From the NCBI GenBank assembly GCA_947629395.1, contig CANRDQ010000010.1, forward strand, positions 1-38,111: a DNA stretch of 38,111 nucleotides. The letters are read 5' to 3'. This document shows, one piece after another, positions 23,635-36,027 of the stretch (its first letter is position 1; every line of letters starts with the position of its first letter). The notes beneath the pieces are model-generated. The model saw only the letters and a program-made list of their open reading frames with translations. It did no database searches and had not been told where the DNA came from. Source of the stretch: an uncultured Bacilli bacterium. GTDB taxonomy: Bacteria > Bacillota_I > Bacilli_A > RF39 > UBA660. Made by a program: the position numbers and the translations under genes.

Positions 23635-23662
23635 AAAATGTGAGAGATAATCTCACATTTTT
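23634..23662. terminator. Bidirectional terminator
   Basis: Twelve-base perfect arms (23634-23645 and 23651-23662) with a 5-nt loop and A/T runs at both ends. It serves the converging ZnuA-like gene (plus) and alkD-like gene (minus). Confidence 0.92.
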
Positions 23663-24362
23663 ATTTTCTTTTTAAACTATTATAATATTCTTTTTCTTCT
23701 TTAGTTACTCTAGTTGATTCTCTAGCTTTTTGTAAGGCTTTATTATAAGTAAAATCATCTAAAGAACTATTCTTTAAATAAATTAAAGTTTCTTCTTTAT
23801 ATTTGATTAAACAAATACTTAAAAGCCAAGCAATAGCCATTTTAATATAATATTCTTCTCTTTTAATGTTATCTATTAATTTAAATACTTCTTTTAAATA
23901 ATCTTTTTCGATATAAAAATCTAAAAGTAAGATAACTCCTACTCTAACTGTATATTCATGTTTATCTTGAAGATAATTTTTTATTTTGTTGAAGAATAAT
24001 TTTTTATTATTTTTAACTATCTTCATACCTGAAACAACTAAATCACAGATTGCCCAATTATCTATCTTTTTGATAAATTTATCAAAGTAAGTTATAGATT
24101 CATCTACATCTTTAATATTACTAATTACAAAACCTTCAATTAAGATTTCTTCATAAGTATTAGTAGTTACTAGTTTTAAAAAACTTTTATAATCAGTCTT
24201 ACTGATTTCTTTAGCTATTTTTCTTAAAAGTGGTGTTCTAACTCCTAACATAGGATATTCAGTTATAATTATTTTTTGATTAAATTCTTTATATTTTAAA
24301 TCTTTATTAGTATTTAATTCTTTTAAAAACAGTTTATACTTTTCTTTAGTCCATTTATCCAT
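23661..24362 (-). CDS. AlkD-like DNA alkylation repair protein (HEAT repeats)
   Basis: 233 aa, all-helical HEAT-like repeats, no membrane segment. Family marks are YPMLGVRTPLLRKIAKEI near residue 37, NWAICDLVVSGM near the middle, YYIKMAIAWLLSICLIKY, and the terminal NKALQKARES. AlkD removes positively charged alkylated bases (3-methyladenine, 7-methylguanine) without flipping them. I take the ATG at 24362, one base after the TruB-fusion stop, because the next in-frame ATGs upstream fall inside that gene; the ribosome site is GGAAGG at a long distance, so translational coupling is likely. It is the last gene of the lepA operon. Confidence 0.9.
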   Translation of the reverse strand: MDKWTKEKYKLFLKELNTNKDLKYKEFNQKIIITEYPMLGVRTPLLRKIAKEISKTDYKSFLKLVTTNTYEEILIEGFVISNIKDVDESITYFDKFIKKIDNWAICDLVVSGMKIVKNNKKLFFNKIKNYLQDKHEYTVRVGVILLLDFYIEKDYLKEVFKLIDNIKREEYYIKMAIAWLLSICLIKYKEETLIYLKNSSLDDFTYNKALQKARESTRVTKEEKEYYNSLKRK

Positions 24363-24363
24363 C

Positions 24364-25746
24364 TTAGTTAAATACCTTCCATGATTTATAGTCTTTACCA
24401 TTTCTTTCATAGATAGCTACTAAATTATTATTTTTATCTATAAACATTATTTTATCAGCTGTACTTTGATAATCTTTTAATACTACTCCGTTTTGAACTT
24501 TAAATAATAGATCTTTATCTATTACTTCTTTTTTTATATCTAAAGCATCTACTATTTTTATTAATTGGAAATCTTTGTTTTTTATTTGGTCTAGACTATA
24601 AGCATCTTCTAGTTTAAAACCACTTTGATAAGTTCTCTTTAAAGATGTCATAGTGGCATAACATCCAAGATAATCTCCAATATCACGAATTAAACTACGA
24701 ATATAAGTTCCTTTACTAACACGACATTTAATGATATATTCATTATCTTTTTTATCTAGTAATTCTAGTTCTTTAATAGTTACTTCTTTTTTAGGTAATT
24801 CTATAGTTTCTCCATTACGGGCATATTCATATAATTTTTTACCTTTAATTTTAACAGCTGAATAAATAGGTACTTCTTGTAAATAGGTAGTTTTAAAGTG
24901 AGCTAAAGCTTTATTAATATCTATATTATCATCTACTTCTTTAGTATCTAATACTTGTCCTGTAATATCTAAAGTGTCTGTTAAAAGGCCTAACTTGAAA
25001 GATGCAATATATTCTTTATCTTCTTTGACTAATAATTCGCCTATCTTAGTAGCTTGTCCGACAGTAATAACTAAAAGACCTGTCGCTAGAGGATCAAGAG
25101 TTCCTGTATGCCCTACTTTCTTGAAACCTAAAGTTTTAGATACGATATTAACAACATCACGAGAAGTCATATCTTTTTCTTTATTGACAAGTAAAATACC
25201 ACTATTTTGTTTTAGATAATATTCTTCTAGGGTACTATTTTTAGTCATGATTTCTTTCGCAACGGCTTCTCCTACATATCTAATATGCCATGGTTCATAA
25301 TTATAACCAGTTATTTTCTCTTTACCATTAGGATATCTTAAAATAAAACCAAATTGACTTAAATAAGGATGAATTTCTAAATATAAAGCATCTGAATCTT
25401 CTATTTCTTCAGATTCTTTTTCAACTTTAAGATCAATAGCTAGTCCTGTATGATGTTCAGAACAACCTACTTTCGCCACATATTTTTTGACGTAATCTTC
25501 GCCATTTTCTTTTAAATAGGTCTCTCTTAATTCTTCTTGTTTTTCATAAGTTCTAAAGGCCGAATTAATACCTATTATTAAGCCTTTAGTCTTTAAAAAT
25601 TCTTTTAGTTGTTCATAATGAAAAAGAGTATTTTTTTCTATTAATACATCTTCTCCTTTAACATCTTTAGTAAACTGTTTATCTATCTTCTCAATTTCTT
25701 CTTTACTTATTTTATGATATTTATTAACTAATAAAGTGTAATCCAT
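24364..25746 (-). CDS. truB: Fusion: VanY-type D,D-carboxypeptidase + tRNA pseudouridine-55 synthase TruB
   Basis: One continuous frame of 460 aa. Residues about 1-178 are an M15B (VanY/LdcB) peptidase: Zn motif SEHHTGLAID (His98, Asp105), EPWH with Glu151 and Zn-binding His154, and the typical family ending TLEEYYL. Residues 182-460 are a full TruB: GILLVNKEKDMTSRDVV, GHTGTLDPLATG with catalytic Asp218, YSAVKIKGKKLYEYAR, and SKGTYIRSLIRDIG. Only about four residues join them. No signal peptide precedes the peptidase, so both halves should be cytoplasmic; the peptidase may act on precursors as VanXY enzymes do. An internal Met167 has no clear ribosome site. ATG 25746 is preceded by GTGGTGAAG. 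Lies between tmk and alkD. Confidence 0.95.
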   Translation of the reverse strand: MDYTLLVNKYHKISKEEIEKIDKQFTKDVKGEDVLIEKNTLFHYEQLKEFLKTKGLIIGINSAFRTYEKQEELRETYLKENGEDYVKKYVAKVGCSEHHTGLAIDLKVEKESEEIEDSDALYLEIHPYLSQFGFILRYPNGKEKITGYNYEPWHIRYVGEAVAKEIMTKNSTLEEYYLKQNSGILLVNKEKDMTSRDVVNIVSKTLGFKKVGHTGTLDPLATGLLVITVGQATKIGELLVKEDKEYIASFKLGLLTDTLDITGQVLDTKEVDDNIDINKALAHFKTTYLQEVPIYSAVKIKGKKLYEYARNGETIELPKKEVTIKELELLDKKDNEYIIKCRVSKGTYIRSLIRDIGDYLGCYATMTSLKRTYQSGFKLEDAYSLDQIKNKDFQLIKIVDALDIKKEVIDKDLLFKVQNGVVLKDYQSTADKIMFIDKNNNLVAIYERNGKDYKSWKVFN

Positions 25747-25760
25747 AACTTCACCACTTC

Positions 25761-26447
25761 TTATTTTCTTGTCAATTTTAATTCTTTAACGACTGTGTTA
25801 TATACATCTTCACTTATATCTTCTTTACTTCTAATTTGATTATCTTTGATACATTCTATTTTAGTCCAATTATAAAGTTCAGAAAGTTCTAAATAAGCGG
25901 CTTCTGATTTTTTTAAGTGTTCTGGACTTTTTTCATGTTCATCTAAAAATTCTCTATTTTGTTTTAAAACATTAGAATATTCATAAGGCATATGTAAGAA
26001 AATAGTCATATCAGGTTTTGGTAGTTGTAATAACCAATATTCTAATTTATCAATCCAGTTATACATATTAAATCTTTCTTCTTGATCATCAATCTTACTA
26101 CCTTGATGAGCCATATTAGAAGATATATATCTATCTAATATTACAATGTATCCTTTATTTATATATTCTTCTGTTTTACCAATATTATACTTTCTATCAG
26201 CTGCATAATATAAACAAGCAATATGAGGGTCTACATTTACGGCTCCTTCTTTAAATTTAGATGGTCCAATATCTTCTTTTCCAAGATAATCTCCACCTAC
26301 TATTTGTCCAGTTGGACTATCATATACAGGAAAAGAAAAACGTATAACGTTATATCCTTCTTGTTTTAATTTTTCTTCTAGTAAAATTGATTGTGTTTCT
26401 TTTCCAGAACAATCTGTTCCTTCTATTACTATATACTTACCTTCCAT
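25761..26447 (-). CDS. tmk: Thymidylate kinase (dTMP kinase)
   Basis: Phosphorylates dTMP to dTDP. 228 aa. P-loop EGTDCSGKETQS near residue 9, the DRYISSNMAHQGSKI motif near residue 100 (Asp-Arg-Tyr, binding the base), and LPKPDMTIFLHMP as the late strand. The P-loop has Glu after Lys where Ser or Thr is usual at that place, with Thr next. Length is slightly above E. coli Tmk. ATG follows AGGAGA, 9 bp after the HD gene stop. Cytoplasmic. Confidence 0.93.
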   Translation of the reverse strand: MEGKYIVIEGTDCSGKETQSILLEEKLKQEGYNVIRFSFPVYDSPTGQIVGGDYLGKEDIGPSKFKEGAVNVDPHIACLYYAADRKYNIGKTEEYINKGYIVILDRYISSNMAHQGSKIDDQEERFNMYNWIDKLEYWLLQLPKPDMTIFLHMPYEYSNVLKQNREFLDEHEKSPEHLKKSEAAYLELSELYNWTKIECIKDNQIRSKEDISEDVYNTVVKELKLTRK

Positions 26448-26456
26448 AATTATCTC

Positions 26457-27038
26457 CTATCCTATTATATTATTATGATCATCAAATTCTAATATTAGGC
26501 ATTTTCGACTAGCTAAATAATCACACATGTGTACAAAGTTTTCATATTTTGTTTTAGGCTTTTCTAAAACATCATTACCTTGATAATCAGTAGTCCAAGG
26601 TCCCATATGTTTTTTTATAACTGAAGTAAGAAGTTTTATTTCTTCATCACTAAAATCTAGACTAGCACTATTTTCAACAATATAGTCAGCCATTAATATA
26701 GGATGTTCAAACTTTGTATAACGACTTTTTTCTTTTCCAAGTTTTAAACCATCATGAAGCATTAGCCCCATTAACATTATATCTTTTTCATCATTGGTAT
26801 ATTTATTACCAATTGAAGGATTTTCAAGTAATTCATGAGCAATTCTAACAGCGGCTTTAGTATGTCTTAAAAGTCCTCCCTCTCCTGCGGCATATTTAGG
26901 ATGATATTTTCCTGATGATGCGGCTGGGACTTCAAAAAAGTAATCGGGAAGTTTATCAATCATAACCTCAGCATTCTTTCTAATTCTATCACTCTTTATA
27001 TATTTTAATTCTATTTCAAATTGTTTAATCTTTTCCAT
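26457..27038 (-). CDS. HD-domain phosphohydrolase, substrate unknown
   Basis: 193 aa with the HD metal motif: RHTKAA (first His), LMLHDGLKLG (His-Asp pair), EHPILMADYI, KKHMGPW and MCDYLAS (final Asp). The N terminus YHPKYAAGEGGLLRHT resembles the HD part of YhaM-like and related RNA or nucleotide hydrolases. The start overlaps hemW by 14 bp with a GGAGG inside hemW, so the genes are translated together. It sits before tmk, but a nucleotide role is only inference. Stop is TAG. Confidence 0.88.
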   Translation of the reverse strand: MEKIKQFEIELKYIKSDRIRKNAEVMIDKLPDYFFEVPAASSGKYHPKYAAGEGGLLRHTKAAVRIAHELLENPSIGNKYTNDEKDIMLMGLMLHDGLKLGKEKSRYTKFEHPILMADYIVENSASLDFSDEEIKLLTSVIKKHMGPWTTDYQGNDVLEKPKTKYENFVHMCDYLASRKCLILEFDDHNNIIG

Positions 27039-28131
27039 TACTACCTCCTACAAAAGATAAAAGAATCTCATTTTCAACATAAAGTTTATCTCTAGGTATA
27101 AAAATATATTTATCGTTTTCTTCTAATAATCTTTTATCTAATAAATCAATTATATCAAATTTTTCAGAAATAGTACAATGATATGTTCGATAAAATTTAT
27201 CTTTAGAAACACCTTCACACTTTCTAAGCCCTAAAATCATCTCATAAATACATTTATCTTCTTCACTTAATTCTTCTATATCTAAGATAAAATCTTTCTT
27301 TAAATATTTAGAGAAACTCCTAGTATTAGTAATTCTTTTACTACCAATATAAGAAGCTGCCCCTAAACCTACTCCATAGTATTCTTCATTATTCCAATAT
27401 CTTAAATTATGTTTACTCTCATAACCAAGTTTAGAAAAATTAGATATTTCATATTGTTTAAAGTTATTATCTTCTAAAGTCTTAATAATAGTGTTATACA
27501 TTTCATAATCTAAATCTTCACTAATATTCTCTACTTTATCAATATAAAGTTTAGTATGTTCTTCTAAGATTAAAGAATATGTAGATATATGAGTAACATC
27601 TAAACTAATTAAAAAATCTAAATCTTGTTTTAATTCTTCAATAGTTTCATCTTTTAAACCATACATTAAATCTACATTAATATTAGTTATTCCTATTTTT
27701 TTAGAATATTCTATTAATTCTTTTACTTTAGAAATATTTAAATCTCTATTTAGGAATTTTAAATGTTTTTTATTAATAGTTTCAATACCAAAACTAATTC
27801 TATTTATTCCATATTTTTTAAATAAATCTAATTTTTCTTTAGTAAGAGAATCAAAATTAGCTTCAATTGTATATTCTAAATTAGAATTCTTTTTTAGGTT
27901 GTCTAATATTTTAAAGAGTCTTTCTAATTCAGAAATAGTTAAGGCACTAGGTGTTCCCCCGCCTATATAGATTGTTTCTAAAATATCATCTTGATAAACT
28001 TCTTTTATTTCTTCTTCTAATATCTTTAAATAATTATCTATCATATTCCTATTAGTATATAATTTAGGAAAATCACAATAAGAACAAATCTTATTACAAA
28101 AAGGAATATGAACATACATAGATTTTATCAT
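27025..28131 (-). CDS. hemW: Radical-SAM heme chaperone HemW
   Basis: 368 aa. N-terminal radical-SAM motif VHIPFCNKICSYCDF (Cx3Cx2C), then IYIGGGTPSAL, FGIETINKKHLKFLNR and NVDLMYGL. The C-terminal HemW domain contains YWNNEEYYGVGLGAASYI. HemW binds and transfers heme; it is not the coproporphyrinogen oxidase HemN. Gene order lepA-hemW is kept in Bacillus. The start overlaps the lepA stop by one base (TAATG). No heme biosynthesis gene is in the window. Confidence 0.94.
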   Translation of the reverse strand: MIKSMYVHIPFCNKICSYCDFPKLYTNRNMIDNYLKILEEEIKEVYQDDILETIYIGGGTPSALTISELERLFKILDNLKKNSNLEYTIEANFDSLTKEKLDLFKKYGINRISFGIETINKKHLKFLNRDLNISKVKELIEYSKKIGITNINVDLMYGLKDETIEELKQDLDFLISLDVTHISTYSLILEEHTKLYIDKVENISEDLDYEMYNTIIKTLEDNNFKQYEISNFSKLGYESKHNLRYWNNEEYYGVGLGAASYIGSKRITNTRSFSKYLKKDFILDIEELSEEDKCIYEMILGLRKCEGVSKDKFYRTYHCTISEKFDIIDLLDKRLLEENDKYIFIPRDKLYVENEILLSFVGGSNGKD

Positions 28132-29921
28132 TATTCGTCTGTTGATAAAATGGAAAGGAAGGCTTCTTGAGGTACTTCTACACTTCCTAACATTTTCATC
28201 TTTTTCTTTCCAGCTTTTTGTTTTTCAAGAAGTTTTTTCTTACGGGTAACATCTCCACCATAACATTTCGCTAAAACATTTTTTCTCATGGCTTTAATAT
28301 CACTTCGAGCAATTACTTTAGAACCAATACTAGCTTGAATTGGGACTTCAAACATTTGACGTGGTATTATTTCTTTTAATTTAGACACAATAGCTTTACC
28401 ACGATTATAGGCAAAATCTTTATGAACAATTAAACTTAAGGCATCAATTATATCACCATTAAGTAAGATATCCATCTTAACTAAAGAACTTTCTTTATAA
28501 CCAATTACTTCATAATCAAAAGATGCATAACCCTTAGTATATGATTTTAACTTATCAAAGAAGTCATATACGATTTCTGATAATGGCATTTCATAATGAA
28601 TAGTAACTCTTTTATCATCTAAATAATCCATATTTAGAAAACTACCTCTTTTATTTTGGCATAATTCCATAATAGGACCAATATATTCTTTAGGTGAAAA
28701 AATACTAATTTTAACGTAAGGTTCTAAAGTTTTAGATATTTTTGATTTATCTGGCATTTTAGCTGGTGAATCTACAAAGATTACATCGTGATTAGTAAGT
28801 TCTACTTGATATATAACGGAAGGAGAAGTCGCAATGATATCTATTCCAAATTCACGTTCAATTCTCTCTTCGATAATTTCCATATGAAGAAGTCCTAAGA
28901 AACCACAACGGAATCCAAAACCTAAAGCTTTAGATGTTTCTGGTTCAAAAGATAAAGCTGCATCATTTAATTTTAATTTTTCTAAAGCTTCTCTTAAGTC
29001 TTCAAATTTACTAGATTCAATAGGATAAAGACCTGAATACACAGTAGGTTTCATAGGTTTATATCCTGGAAGTCTTTCTAAAGCAGGATTATCTTTTAAG
29101 GTAATGGTATCTCCTACTTTGACATCATCAATACTTTTTATAGAGGCATATAAATAACCAACTTGTCCGGCTTTTAAGACATCTACTTCTTTTTCTTTAG
29201 GATTATTTATACTAAGAGATAAAACTTCATAAGAGGCATTAGTTTCCATCATTAAAATTAAATCTTTTTTCTTAATTTCTCCATCTACTATTCTAATACT
29301 GGTAATAATACCACGATAAGAGTCAAAGACACTATCAAAGATTAAAGCTTTAAGAGGTTTATTAACATCACCTTTAGGAGCAGGAATATCTTCTATTATT
29401 TTAGCAAGTAATTCTTTAATACCCGTTCCTGTTTTCGCACTAGTATAAACAATATCTTTTTTATCAAAACCAATATTTTCTAGTTCTTCTGTTACTTTAT
29501 CAATATCGGCATTAGGAAGATCTATTTTATTAACTACTGGAATTACGGTTAAATCATTATCTAAAGCTAAATAGAGATTTGCTAGAGTTTGAGCTTCTAT
29601 TCCTTGAGATGCATCTACTACTAAGAGAGCTCCATCACTAGCGGCTAGTGATCTACTAACTTCATAAGAAAAATCAACATGTCCTGGGGTATCTATTAAA
29701 TTTAAAAAGTAATCTTCACCTTTATAATTATAAGTAAGTTCTACAGCATTAAGTTTAATAGTAATACCACGTTCTCTTTCTATATCCATAGAATCAAGTA
29801 ATTGATCTTTCATTTCTCTTTTTTCCAAAGAACCAGTCTCTTCTAATATTCTATCTGCAATAGTACTTTTACCATGATCTATATGAGCAATAATACAAAA
29901 ATTTCTAATATTTTCTTGCAT
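28131..29921 (-). CDS. lepA: Elongation factor 4 (LepA)
   Basis: 596 aa, normal length. GTPase motifs AHIDHGKST (G1), RERGITIK (G2), DTPGH (G3) and NKID (G4) are intact, and the C-terminal LepA domain runs to [28 protein letters not shown]. LepA acts on the ribosome as a GTPase in initiation and assembly and under stress. SD TAGGAGGTGG is excellent. It starts the operon lepA-hemW-HD-tmk-truB-alkD. Confidence 0.98.
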
Positions 29922-30873: not shown

Positions 30874-31806
30874 TTATCCCTGATTCTCCTTTATTACTTG
30901 AACAAAAGCCTCTTCAAAAGCAACGATAGAGTTAAAGACTTCATCAATTGTATTTTCCATACCACCAAACTCAACCAATATCGTATATGGCGAAAAATCT
31001 TGATTATAAACTCCATTAACACCAGCTCCTCCTTTTTTATATATTCCTTTACTAAGTCCTGGATATTTTTCAGTTAAAATATTATTAATTTTAGTTACAA
31101 AGTTTAAGTTCTTTTCATAATTAGGATTTTCTAAACCGATTAAAAATATTATTTTGGCATAAGTTTTATCTTCTATTTTAATAGTAGTTTTATCTTTAGA
31201 AAGAGAATCTCTATGAACATCAATAAAATATGTTAAAGATGGATTAGTAGCTTTAGAACTTTCTAAATAACTACGACTAGCTTCATAACTATAAACATAT
31301 TTTTTACCATTGGCTTTTAAATAATCAGAGATACTTCTTTCTTCTACTAAACTAGTTAAATTATGTTCTTTTAATTTTTCTTGTAAAATATAACTTCCTA
31401 CCATAACAGTTGGGGAAACACTATATTCAGCAAAATTACTAGCTTTATAATTTTCTGTTTGATGAGAATTATAAATATAGATAAGAGGTTGTGTAGAAGG
31501 TTTAGACTCTGTTTTTGGTTGTTCTTTTAACTTTAATTTAGTAAAACCTTTATAATTGTTATTTAATAAATTAAGGGGATTACTTAATAGTTTTATTACT
31601 GATTTAGTAAAGTTGGTTTTTTTTAATTTTAGAGCTTTATTACTTTCTTTTAATAATATGTTATTTAAGGTTTCATTATCAAAGGATATTTCTTTTTGTT
31701 CTAAATAAGAAAAAGTAAGATAAAAACTATAAATAAAAAACACAAGAAATAAAACGAATATATACATTCGCTTTTTCTTTCTTGTTTTAAATCTTTTTTT
31801 AGCCAT
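30874..31806 (-). CDS. spoIIP: Stage II sporulation protein P (SpoIIP)
   Basis: Cell-wall amidase/endopeptidase that thins septal peptidoglycan in forespore engulfment. 310 aa. A short basic N terminus and one membrane helix (14-33) anchor it. The catalytic domain has IYIYNSHQTENY (metal histidine and glutamate), YFIDVHRDS, and the late LVEFGGMENTIDE. It is shorter than B. subtilis SpoIIP because the region between the anchor and the enzyme is reduced. Partners SpoIID and SpoIIM are not in the window. The start lies in a possible hairpin (ATTATCA with TGATAAT). Confidence 0.95.
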   Translation of the reverse strand: MAKKRFKTRKKKRMYIFVLFLVFFIYSFYLTFSYLEQKEISFDNETLNNILLKESNKALKLKKTNFTKSVIKLLSNPLNLLNNNYKGFTKLKLKEQPKTESKPSTQPLIYIYNSHQTENYKASNFAEYSVSPTVMVGSYILQEKLKEHNLTSLVEERSISDYLKANGKKYVYSYEASRSYLESSKATNPSLTYFIDVHRDSLSKDKTTIKIEDKTYAKIIFLIGLENPNYEKNLNFVTKINNILTEKYPGLSKGIYKKGGAGVNGVYNQDFSPYTILVEFGGMENTIDEVFNSIVAFEEAFVQVIKENQG

Positions 31807-31870
31807 ATTATCACTTACTTTCTATTAAAATGATAATATAGGCTTTATTTAAATTTTGTCGATTTATAGT

Positions 31871-32899
31871 TTAAGTAGCATTTTCATGTAAAGCTTTATT
31901 AAGACCATTTCCAATTAAGGAAGTTAATTTATTCATGACATAATCTATTTCTTTAGGTGTAACCATTAAATTATAATTAATGGGAGACAATACTTCAAAT
32001 ATTAATTCTTTAGTTTCTTCTTCAGTTAAAGAACCAATCATACCAAAGATTTTACTTTTTTCTTCTAGGGATAAGTCTTTATTAAAAGATAGATAATCTT
32101 GATAATTATTAGGTACTAATTTTAATTTGTTATTATTGATGTTTTCCATTTTAAATCTAAAGTGTTTATACATATAAAATATTGTATCACTAGCGATAGT
32201 TACAGCATCCACTATAGTTGGAACACCTATGGCAAAAACAGGGATACCTAACAGTGATTTATCTAATTTTCCACGATTGTTGCCGACTCCTGATCCTGGG
32301 GCAATACCACTATTACTCATTTGAATAGTTTTATTAAGTCTATCAATAGATGTTGACGCAAGAGCATCAATTACAATTAGAAAATCAGGTTTAACGGTAT
32401 CTACTACCCCTTTAATTAAAGAACCAGTTTCAATACCGGTACTACCAGTAACACCTGGCATAAATATAGATACTTCACGATAACCTTTTTCTATTTCACC
32501 GAGAGTGAATAAATGTTTAGTAACTAAAACATTATCTAAAGTATTTGGCCCTAAAGAATCAGGAGTTGATTCTTTATTACCGAGTCCTACAATGAGAACA
32601 CTACTATCTTCTTTGATATTTTCTTCTTGAAGCATCTTTTTAAAGGTTTTTACAAACATATCTTGAACTTTCTGATAATTATTTTTATCCGTAATATCTT
32701 TAAAAGAAATGGTTTTATAACTACCCGCAGCTTTACCTAAAGTTTTAGAAGCTTTCTCTTTTATAACCGTTTCTTCTAAGATAATATCACCTTGTTCATA
32801 TCTCTTATGTTCTACTCCATCTAACTTCTTACTGACATCAATTGATTCAATAATTAGGTCTGTTCTTAAGTTTTTATTCTTTAAATCTATTTCATGCAT
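31871..32899 (-). CDS. gpr: Spore germination protease (GPR)
   Basis: Degrades small acid-soluble spore proteins when spores germinate. The 342-aa protein begins with a short propeptide and LRTDLIIES. Family marks include VLIVGLGNKESTPDSLGP, MPGVTGSTGIETG, VIDALASTSIDRLNKTIQ, and PGSGVGNNRGKL. Its presence points to a lineage that forms, or formed, endospores. ATG follows AGGTGAT. It diverges from rpsT, as in Bacillus. A sigma-F/G-like promoter is suggested at 32916-32946. Confidence 0.97.
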   Translation of the reverse strand: MHEIDLKNKNLRTDLIIESIDVSKKLDGVEHKRYEQGDIILEETVIKEKASKTLGKAAGSYKTISFKDITDKNNYQKVQDMFVKTFKKMLQEENIKEDSSVLIVGLGNKESTPDSLGPNTLDNVLVTKHLFTLGEIEKGYREVSIFMPGVTGSTGIETGSLIKGVVDTVKPDFLIVIDALASTSIDRLNKTIQMSNSGIAPGSGVGNNRGKLDKSLLGIPVFAIGVPTIVDAVTIASDTIFYMYKHFRFKMENINNNKLKLVPNNYQDYLSFNKDLSLEEKSKIFGMIGSLTEEETKELIFEVLSPINYNLMVTPKEIDYVMNKLTSLIGNGLNKALHENAT

Positions 32900-35673: not shown

Positions 35674-35686
35674 GTTCTATTTTTTT
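35654..35686. terminator. Bidirectional terminator
   Basis: Thirteen-base arms (35654-35666 and 35674-35686), 7-nt loop. It ends both the 284-aa gene (plus) and the infB-rbfA operon (minus), overlapping both stop codons. Confidence 0.92.
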
Positions 35687-36027
35687 TCGTCTTTATGAAT
35701 GTTTTCAATAATATTTTCAATATTTTGTCCATACTCTACTGATTCATCATAATAGAATTTTAATTCTGGAGTATGACGTATTTCGATTCTCTCACTTAAA
35801 CATTTACGAATAAAGGGAGAAGCTTTTTCTAAGGATTGCATTACTTCTTTTTTTATAGAATCATCTAGTAAACGGAAATATACTTTAGCAAAACTTAAAT
35901 CATTAGTAATATCGACATCAGTGATAATTACTGATTTTAAAAGTTCATTTTTTACTTCTGTTTCTAGAATAACACTTATTTCACGGACAAAGCTGTGATT
36001 TAAACGTTCAATTTTAATTCTATTCAT
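35677..36027 (-). CDS. rbfA: Ribosome-binding factor A
   Basis: A 116-aa KH-like protein needed for 16S maturation and cold growth. Marks: RIKIERLNHSFVREIS, VIITDVDITNDLSFAKVYF and the end RIEIRHTPELKFYYDESVEYG. The ATG overlaps the infB stop by one base (TAATG) with a weak ribosome site, so translation is coupled. In Bacillus truB follows; here the operon ends after rbfA and truB lies 10 kb away. Confidence 0.97.
   Translation of the reverse strand: MNRIKIERLNHSFVREISVILETEVKNELLKSVIITDVDITNDLSFAKVYFRLLDDSIKKEVMQSLEKASPFIRKCLSERIEIRHTPELKFYYDESVEYGQNIENIIENIHKDEKK

Follow-up and report, generated by a model that had tools for sequence, protein, structure and literature searches.

A putatively bifunctional VanY-TruB fusion in gut Bacilli, probably old and probably maintained by TruB's dependence on the peptidase start

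M15B carboxypeptidases take the C-terminal D-Ala off cell-wall peptides, and the described enzymes closest to the one considered here are the bifunctional D,D-dipeptidases/D,D-carboxypeptidases VanXY (VanXYc, VanXYg), the L,D-carboxypeptidase LdcB/DacB and the D,D-carboxypeptidase VanYB, the last of which is membrane-bound. TruB is the tRNA pseudouridine-55 synthase, and the usual place of its gene is directly after rbfA. That a conserved fusion of two genes reflects a shared function is the assumption behind 'Rosetta stone' function prediction. The zinc, catalytic and D-Ala-contacting residues of pneumococcal LdcB are described in excerpts of PMC4087270. Among the titles and abstract openings listed in searches of the open-licence PMC literature, no report of a VanY-TruB architecture was found. 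Here, we describe a gene that places these two core, unrelated enzymes, one of wall metabolism and one of tRNA modification, on a single polypeptide across a broad clade of uncultured gut bacteria.

The window, a stretch of 38,111 bases with 27% G+C from an uncultured Bacilli bacterium of family UBA660, carries the gene and its parts on the minus strand:

24364..25746, minus strand: VanY(M15B)-TruB fusion gene, 460 aa (ORF, translation, Pfam/NCBIfam, AF2 model)
25213..25746, minus strand: M15B peptidase domain, residues 1-178 (Pfam; fold matches VanYB, VanXYc and LdcB)
25270-25641, minus strand: Pfam VanY core, residues 36-159 (E 2.5e-29)
25432..25461, minus strand: SEHHTGLAID, residues 96-105, with zinc ligands His98 and Asp105 (M15/LAS motif)
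25285..25296, minus strand: EPWH, residues 151-154, with catalytic Glu151 and zinc ligand His154 (roles by motif)
25192..25230, minus strand: joint, residues 173-185 (translation, AF2 model)
24367..25203, minus strand: TruB domain, residues 182-460
25093..25095, minus strand: catalytic Asp218 of TruB (alignment)

The gene runs from an ATG at 25746 to a TAA at 24366-24364 as 460 codons in one frame, whereas translation of 24364-25746 on the plus strand, a choice that the original prediction had left unnamed, meets many stops. The single frame, both sets of active-site residues and a joint of about four residues (TLEEYYL-KQNS-GILLVNK, with TLEEYYL at residues 172-178) were all confirmed by translation, Pfam and NCBIfam. 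VanY passed its Pfam gathering score (102.2 against 25 bits), and the HxxxxxxD...ExxH zinc/catalytic set is complete in the window protein (His98, Asp105, Glu151, His154). On the TruB side, Pfam matched TruB_N at residues 204-349 (E 7.4e-48) and TruB_C_2 at residues 350-390 (E 2.8e-9), and the NCBIfam equivalog TIGR00431 was passed with 224.1 bits against a cut-off of 151.45. An AF2 model of the fusion (mean pLDDT 91.6, pTM 0.80) predicts that the final helix of the peptidase (173-180) continues into the opening strand of TruB (183-189), giving the joint a structure, as had been proposed for examination. The N-terminus has no hydrophobic segment: over its first 70 aa, Kyte-Doolittle means in 19-residue frames peak at 0.41, which agrees with the predicted lack of a signal peptide. 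Secretion or membrane anchoring is at odds both with this N-terminus and with the TruB half, which requires the cytosol; judged by its sequence, the window protein is cytoplasmic and not exported. The likeness to VanXY enzymes that had been drawn on this point holds for location only.

A search covering 5.8 billion proteins returned both domains in each of the best 120 of 8000 scored candidates, the query included, with lengths of 451-577 aa; model A2 was built from 63 of these 120. The only source name among them, 'tRNA pseudouridine55 synthase' for P0009, conceals a predicted cytosolic wall peptidase. RF39/UBA660 are genome-reduced gut Bacilli. Excerpts of PMC13155120 assign family UBA660 to order RF39. 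In samples anchored on G001, the nearest genome of the scan at 65% identity, the fused gene was found in at least 24 of 288 genomes of its order (21 full, three with a partial peptidase match), at least 25 of 243 of its family (22 full, three with a partial peptidase match) and at least three of 392 of its phylum (none partial, and all three also in the order sample), these counts being lower bounds with 4 to 6 candidates scored per genome. The scan of the genome collection yielded 80 loci; L001-L011 are fused, L009 having a gap, and the N-terminus of L047 and L057 is short and degenerate. The nearest genomes, G716 and G001, whose LepA is 85-87% identical to that of the window, carry the same fusion with no stop between the halves, and the same open frame is shared by other genomes at 45-66% identity. 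An assembly or sequencing artefact that removed a stop, a concern raised with the original prediction, is therefore excluded by these genomes and the 120 fused proteins, and we give it almost no credence. In all 11 fused genomes examined, the fused gene was the sole full TruB match; G009 has an additional 95-residue TruB match at bases 17-307 of another contig. No viral relative of the fusion was confirmed in IMG/VR. In 50,697 phage records 31 matches were obtained, none spanning 80% of the query, and the ten listed fell mostly on the TruB half.

Whether TruB could be made separately was assessed from start codons and ribosome-binding sites, two of which concern the window directly:

25751..25755, minus strand: Shine-Dalgarno-like GGTGA before the ATG at 25746
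25246..25248, minus strand: codon of Met167, proposed internal start

With the main start taken as the best among several nearby start codons, a Shine-Dalgarno match of at least four bases precedes it in 43 of the 46 fused loci. The joint region is devoid of any start codon in 20 of the 46, and an internal start preceded by a four-base match occurs in five (L007, L011, L116, L124, L157). A conserved start at Met167, suggested earlier as the origin of a separate TruB, was rejected: methionine occupies this position in 3/119 proteins, and no Shine-Dalgarno match precedes it in the window. As far as these sequences tell, the fused TruB is without a conserved start of its own.

Residues were counted on 119 aligned proteins, leaving out P0005, a 577-aa fusion in which part of the peptidase-TruB sequence is repeated internally and which resembles an assembly chimera. 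His98, Asp105, His154, Ser96, Gln70 and TruB Asp218 are kept in all 119, as are TruB Tyr246 and Arg350, which we take to be the active-site Tyr and Arg of TruB; Glu151 and Arg65 are each kept in 118. By motif, the seven peptidase positions would correspond to the zinc, catalytic and D-Ala-contacting residues of LdcB. At the level of fused loci, the six peptidase residues tested are all present in 37/46, window included, and at least one is lost in nine (L009, L047, L057, L127, L129, L130, L131, L156, L160), seven of which have gaps in the peptidase with the frame maintained (L009, L047, L057, L129, L130, L131, L160); the TruB catalytic Asp is retained in 46/46. In 14 of 14 pairs, dN/dS (Nei-Gojobori) was 0.12-0.35 for the peptidase half and 0.05-0.34 for the TruB half, with some pairs near saturation and the L002/L153 VanY value computed on 66 codons owing to a late first Met. 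Two of these pairs are degenerate forms, so the low values are no proof of enzyme activity. Purifying selection on most peptidase halves shows them to be useful, more than carried along, which counts against persistence through TruB's dependence alone; residue retention, gaps and dN/dS together point to a peptidase that is usually selected yet dispensable, joined to an indispensable TruB.

The nine loci with missing active-site residues also bear on a different reading, in which the N-terminal half is generally a structural or RNA-binding appendage of TruB and a peptidase no longer. Consistent with it, the L057 remnant is still predicted to be folded (block pLDDT 66-88) and dN/dS of the L047/L057 remnant is 0.28. 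As a general account it is quite improbable in our view, given that the ligands and D-Ala-contacting residues tested persist in 37 of 46 loci, the window included, and that each site is kept by no fewer than 118 of the 119 proteins.

The fused gene of the window lies among the following genes:

28131..29921, minus strand: lepA (PF06421)
27025..28131, minus strand: hemW (TIGR00539 above cut-off)
26457..27038, minus strand: HD-domain-like protein (just below Pfam cut-off)
25761..26447, minus strand: dTMP-kinase-like gene, upstream of the fusion (PF02223; below NCBIfam cut-offs)
23661..24362, minus strand: DNA_alkylation (AlkD-like) gene (Pfam; start presumed)
35677-36027: rbfA (name from BLAST matches and position)

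The order is thus lepA, hemW, HD-domain-like, dTMP-kinase-like, fusion, AlkD-like, and rbfA lies 9.9 kb from the fusion start, bearing out the earlier observation that this truB is away from rbfA and in the lepA run. In L174, no dTMP-kinase-like gene was seen to separate the HD gene from the fusion, which points to a lineage-specific gain or loss. As called from 24410, the AlkD-like ORF overlaps the fusion by 47 bases; its start is more likely the ATG at 24362, one base past the fusion stop. Elsewhere in the window (30874-32899), a spoIIP-family protein gene stands beside a GPR endopeptidase gene (TIGR02867 and TIGR01441, both above cut-off), pointing to endospore formation in the window's lineage.

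Other fused genes occupy other places. Besides the lepA run (window, L001, L150/L174), the fusion directly follows rbfA in ten loci (L007, L008, L010, L011, L121, L122, L124, L125, L126, L128). A third place is the slot between polC and nusA-infB, which holds fused genes in L295 and L005 and split ones in L296, L012, L013 and L294. On sequence pieces that reach one side of this slot only, polC adjoins fused (L292, L299, L004), degenerate (L298, L047, L057) and split (L293) forms, and a degenerate form precedes nusA in L297. Here polC, nusA, rpsO and pnp were confirmed on one example each and the other cluster genes were assigned by BLAST grouping. The split truB of G013 (L013, 7983-8837) is interrupted by an in-frame TAG, for which a pseudogene, an error in the sequence or a further copy elsewhere are candidate explanations. 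Spacing from TLEEY to TruB is nearly constant over the 46 loci.

In a tree with 20 of the 21 standalone VanY ORFs of the same genomes (one of two from L188 was left out), 40 fused VanY domains formed a single clade against these paralogues (97/91), for which one old origin is the simplest reading. Its nearest relatives in the tree are L184 and L185, standalone VanY proteins with a hydrophobic start ending in Cys, presumably lipobox-like, in which the peptidase domain is followed by some 124 more residues. The TruB halves gave a less uniform picture: in a quick tree, built after excluding three of the 136 TruB domains that were shorter than 230 aa, those of fused proteins were not monophyletic (nine changes), and the TruBs of the window, L001 and L150 adjoined the split TruB L134 (SH-aLRT 88). 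This pattern leaves room for transfer, or for more than one fusion event involving the same peptidase. LepA was found in 55 of the 60 genomes sought, and in a LepA tree of 56 genomes the window, G716 and G001 grouped together (100/100) and belonged to a clade of 23 rows, of which 16 are fused, five split and two degenerate (95/84); fused rows lie on both sides of its drawn root. The LepA tree conflicts with the VanY and TruB trees for G112/G025 and with the VanY tree for G764, suggesting horizontal transfer or mis-binning as candidate causes.

These conflicts, the scattered TruB halves, the three or more kinds of place in which the fused gene sits and the lack of remnants before split truB would all suit a history in which one VanY gene was fused to truB more than once independently, or in which one fusion spread horizontally, in place of a single vertical origin and losses. 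The one VanY clade, the near-constant TLEEY-TruB spacing and the occurrence of fused and split forms at one locus speak against this, and we regard it as rather unlikely. The simplest reading is a single fusion that would have moved as a unit at least twice and undergone repeated decay or removal of the peptidase, with some horizontal transfer likely on top of one origin. No VanY remnant was detected upstream of 89 split truB genes (E 0.01), so that the support for clean losses comes from trees and synteny. One stop-containing match in G732 proved to be rbfA upstream of truB and no remnant, and the oddly long frames or internal stops at TruB in G749, G760, G206, G290 and G127 gave no VanY match in any of the five genomes. 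The TruB of G760 (L301, 1057-2196) begins with about 83 extra residues that are unrelated to VanY, and may be a further case within this family of a TruB extended at its N-terminus.

The original prediction had offered a link between wall-precursor trimming and translation. Under such coupling one domain might, for instance, regulate or position the other, and selection would act on their physical union. The fusion is old and sits in at least three genomic locations (on the polC side, after rbfA and in the lepA run), both halves are mostly catalytically intact and the joint is short and structured, as such coupling would have it. Nine of the 46 loci have lost peptidase residues, all 46 retain the TruB Asp, seven loci have peptidase gaps, and split relatives occur at the same locus; because relatives with a decayed or absent peptidase are nested among fused ones, with truB at the same locus, coupling is disfavoured. 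We know of no biology that couples VanY-type peptidase and TruB reactions, and we consider the link unsupported and improbable. A more specific version, in which binding or trimming of wall peptides by the peptidase alters the action of TruB on tRNA, or the reverse, would be a long shot; if true, wall-precursor supply would be matched to tRNA maturation in small-genome gut Bacilli, and dead or shrunken peptidase halves would mark lineages that dropped the control. The other option in the original prediction, a functionally unlinked pair joined when a stop was lost, agrees with the data better than coupling does, but the fusion is old and spread over many species, and is no local accident.

The other wall enzymes of these genomes were surveyed alongside. 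PF02016 (LdcA family) is present in 13/20 fused, 3/5 degenerate and 4/17 split genomes, a higher frequency in fused than in split ones (Fisher p 0.02, uncorrected for kinship and with genome completeness unknown), and its presence beside the fusion in 13 of 20 rules the fusion out as a replacement for LdcA. All 20 fused genomes searched have 2 to 4 VanY-family matches and so at least one VanY besides the fusion. A hydrophobic N-terminal segment (2.0-3.7 in the N-terminal prefix, Kyte-Doolittle) is found in 16 of 21 standalone VanY ORFs; with the extra copies mostly of this kind, it would be the fused copy that works in the cytosol. As a check for a link to a ligase of other than D-Ala-D-Ala type, Ddl was also sought, and a Ddl domain match was obtained in 38 of 42 genomes (one in 36, two in two). 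Several Ddl have the YE(D/E)KY loop, a putative mark of the D-Ala-D-Ala type, although in many of the 30 loci the pattern was missed or matched another segment. In many of the L259-L288 genomes, Ddl is about 400-410 aa long and matches about 120-138 of the 204 positions of Dala_Dala_lig_C, as would be expected if these enzymes carried an insert.

On balance, we think it probable that this is an old in-frame fusion yielding one cytoplasmic, bifunctional protein, kept by the dependence of TruB on the peptidase start. The evidence for this reading comprises the single frame, the intact motifs, the lack of a conserved internal start, the one VanY clade and the interspersed forms, each plain in the sequences. 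The fusion would have arisen once, when a VanY-type gene without an export signal was joined directly to truB at the cost of truB's own start and ribosome site, after which TruB could be produced only as the tail of the peptidase. This one-way dependence, and no functional link, would hold the frame open. The M15B half would remove the C-terminal D-Ala from a cytosolic peptide, be it the pentapeptide precursor or a recycled stem peptide, and the C-terminal half, apparently the one TruB of the cell, would make pseudouridine 55. In lineages with no need of the peptidase, active-site mutations or in-frame deletions would erode it and leave TruB in place, or the lineage would revert to plain truB at the same locus; we infer that the direction of change was loss, not repeated gain. 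Neither half is remarkable by itself; what is out of the ordinary is the architecture, together with its age and graded decay. The series of intact, degenerate and split forms offers a natural case for distinguishing shared function from the mere loss of an independent start.

Among known systems, VanXY gives the top PDB sequence match to the peptidase half (4mur, E 2.2e-27), and the VanXY enzymes (VanXYc, VanXYg) resemble the fusion in having the same ligands, no export signal and a similar length; the fusion nevertheless falls below the NCBIfam vanXY equivalog cut-off (131.1 against 250 bits), and VanXY has no TruB fused to it. VanYB gave the highest peptidase Z score (5zhf, 24.0, tied with 5hnm and 6a6a) at 30% identity to the peptidase half, and is not fused; the Z scores of VanYB (24.0), VanXYc (22.9) and LdcB (22.6) are too close for a firm ranking by fold. 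The segment between beta4 and alpha5 (bisubstrate selectivity loop) measures 32-33 residues in VanXY, 31 in LdcB, 28 in the window and 34 in 106 of 120 relatives; VanXY and LdcB are not separable by this length, which was rejected as a guide to D,D versus L,D specificity, and both D,D- and L,D-bonds are candidate substrates. LdcB/DacB is likewise of the M15B family, with the fusion below the NCBIfam LdcB cut-off (102.5 against 275 bits), and according to excerpts of PMC4087270 LdcB acts outside the membrane, in contrast to the cytosolic location predicted for the fusion. LdcA (S66), the cytosolic L,D-carboxypeptidase of peptidoglycan recycling, would share compartment and similar peptides with the fusion, but is a serine peptidase unrelated to it. 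The fused TruB differs from ordinary TruB in forming the C-terminal half of a peptidase fusion.
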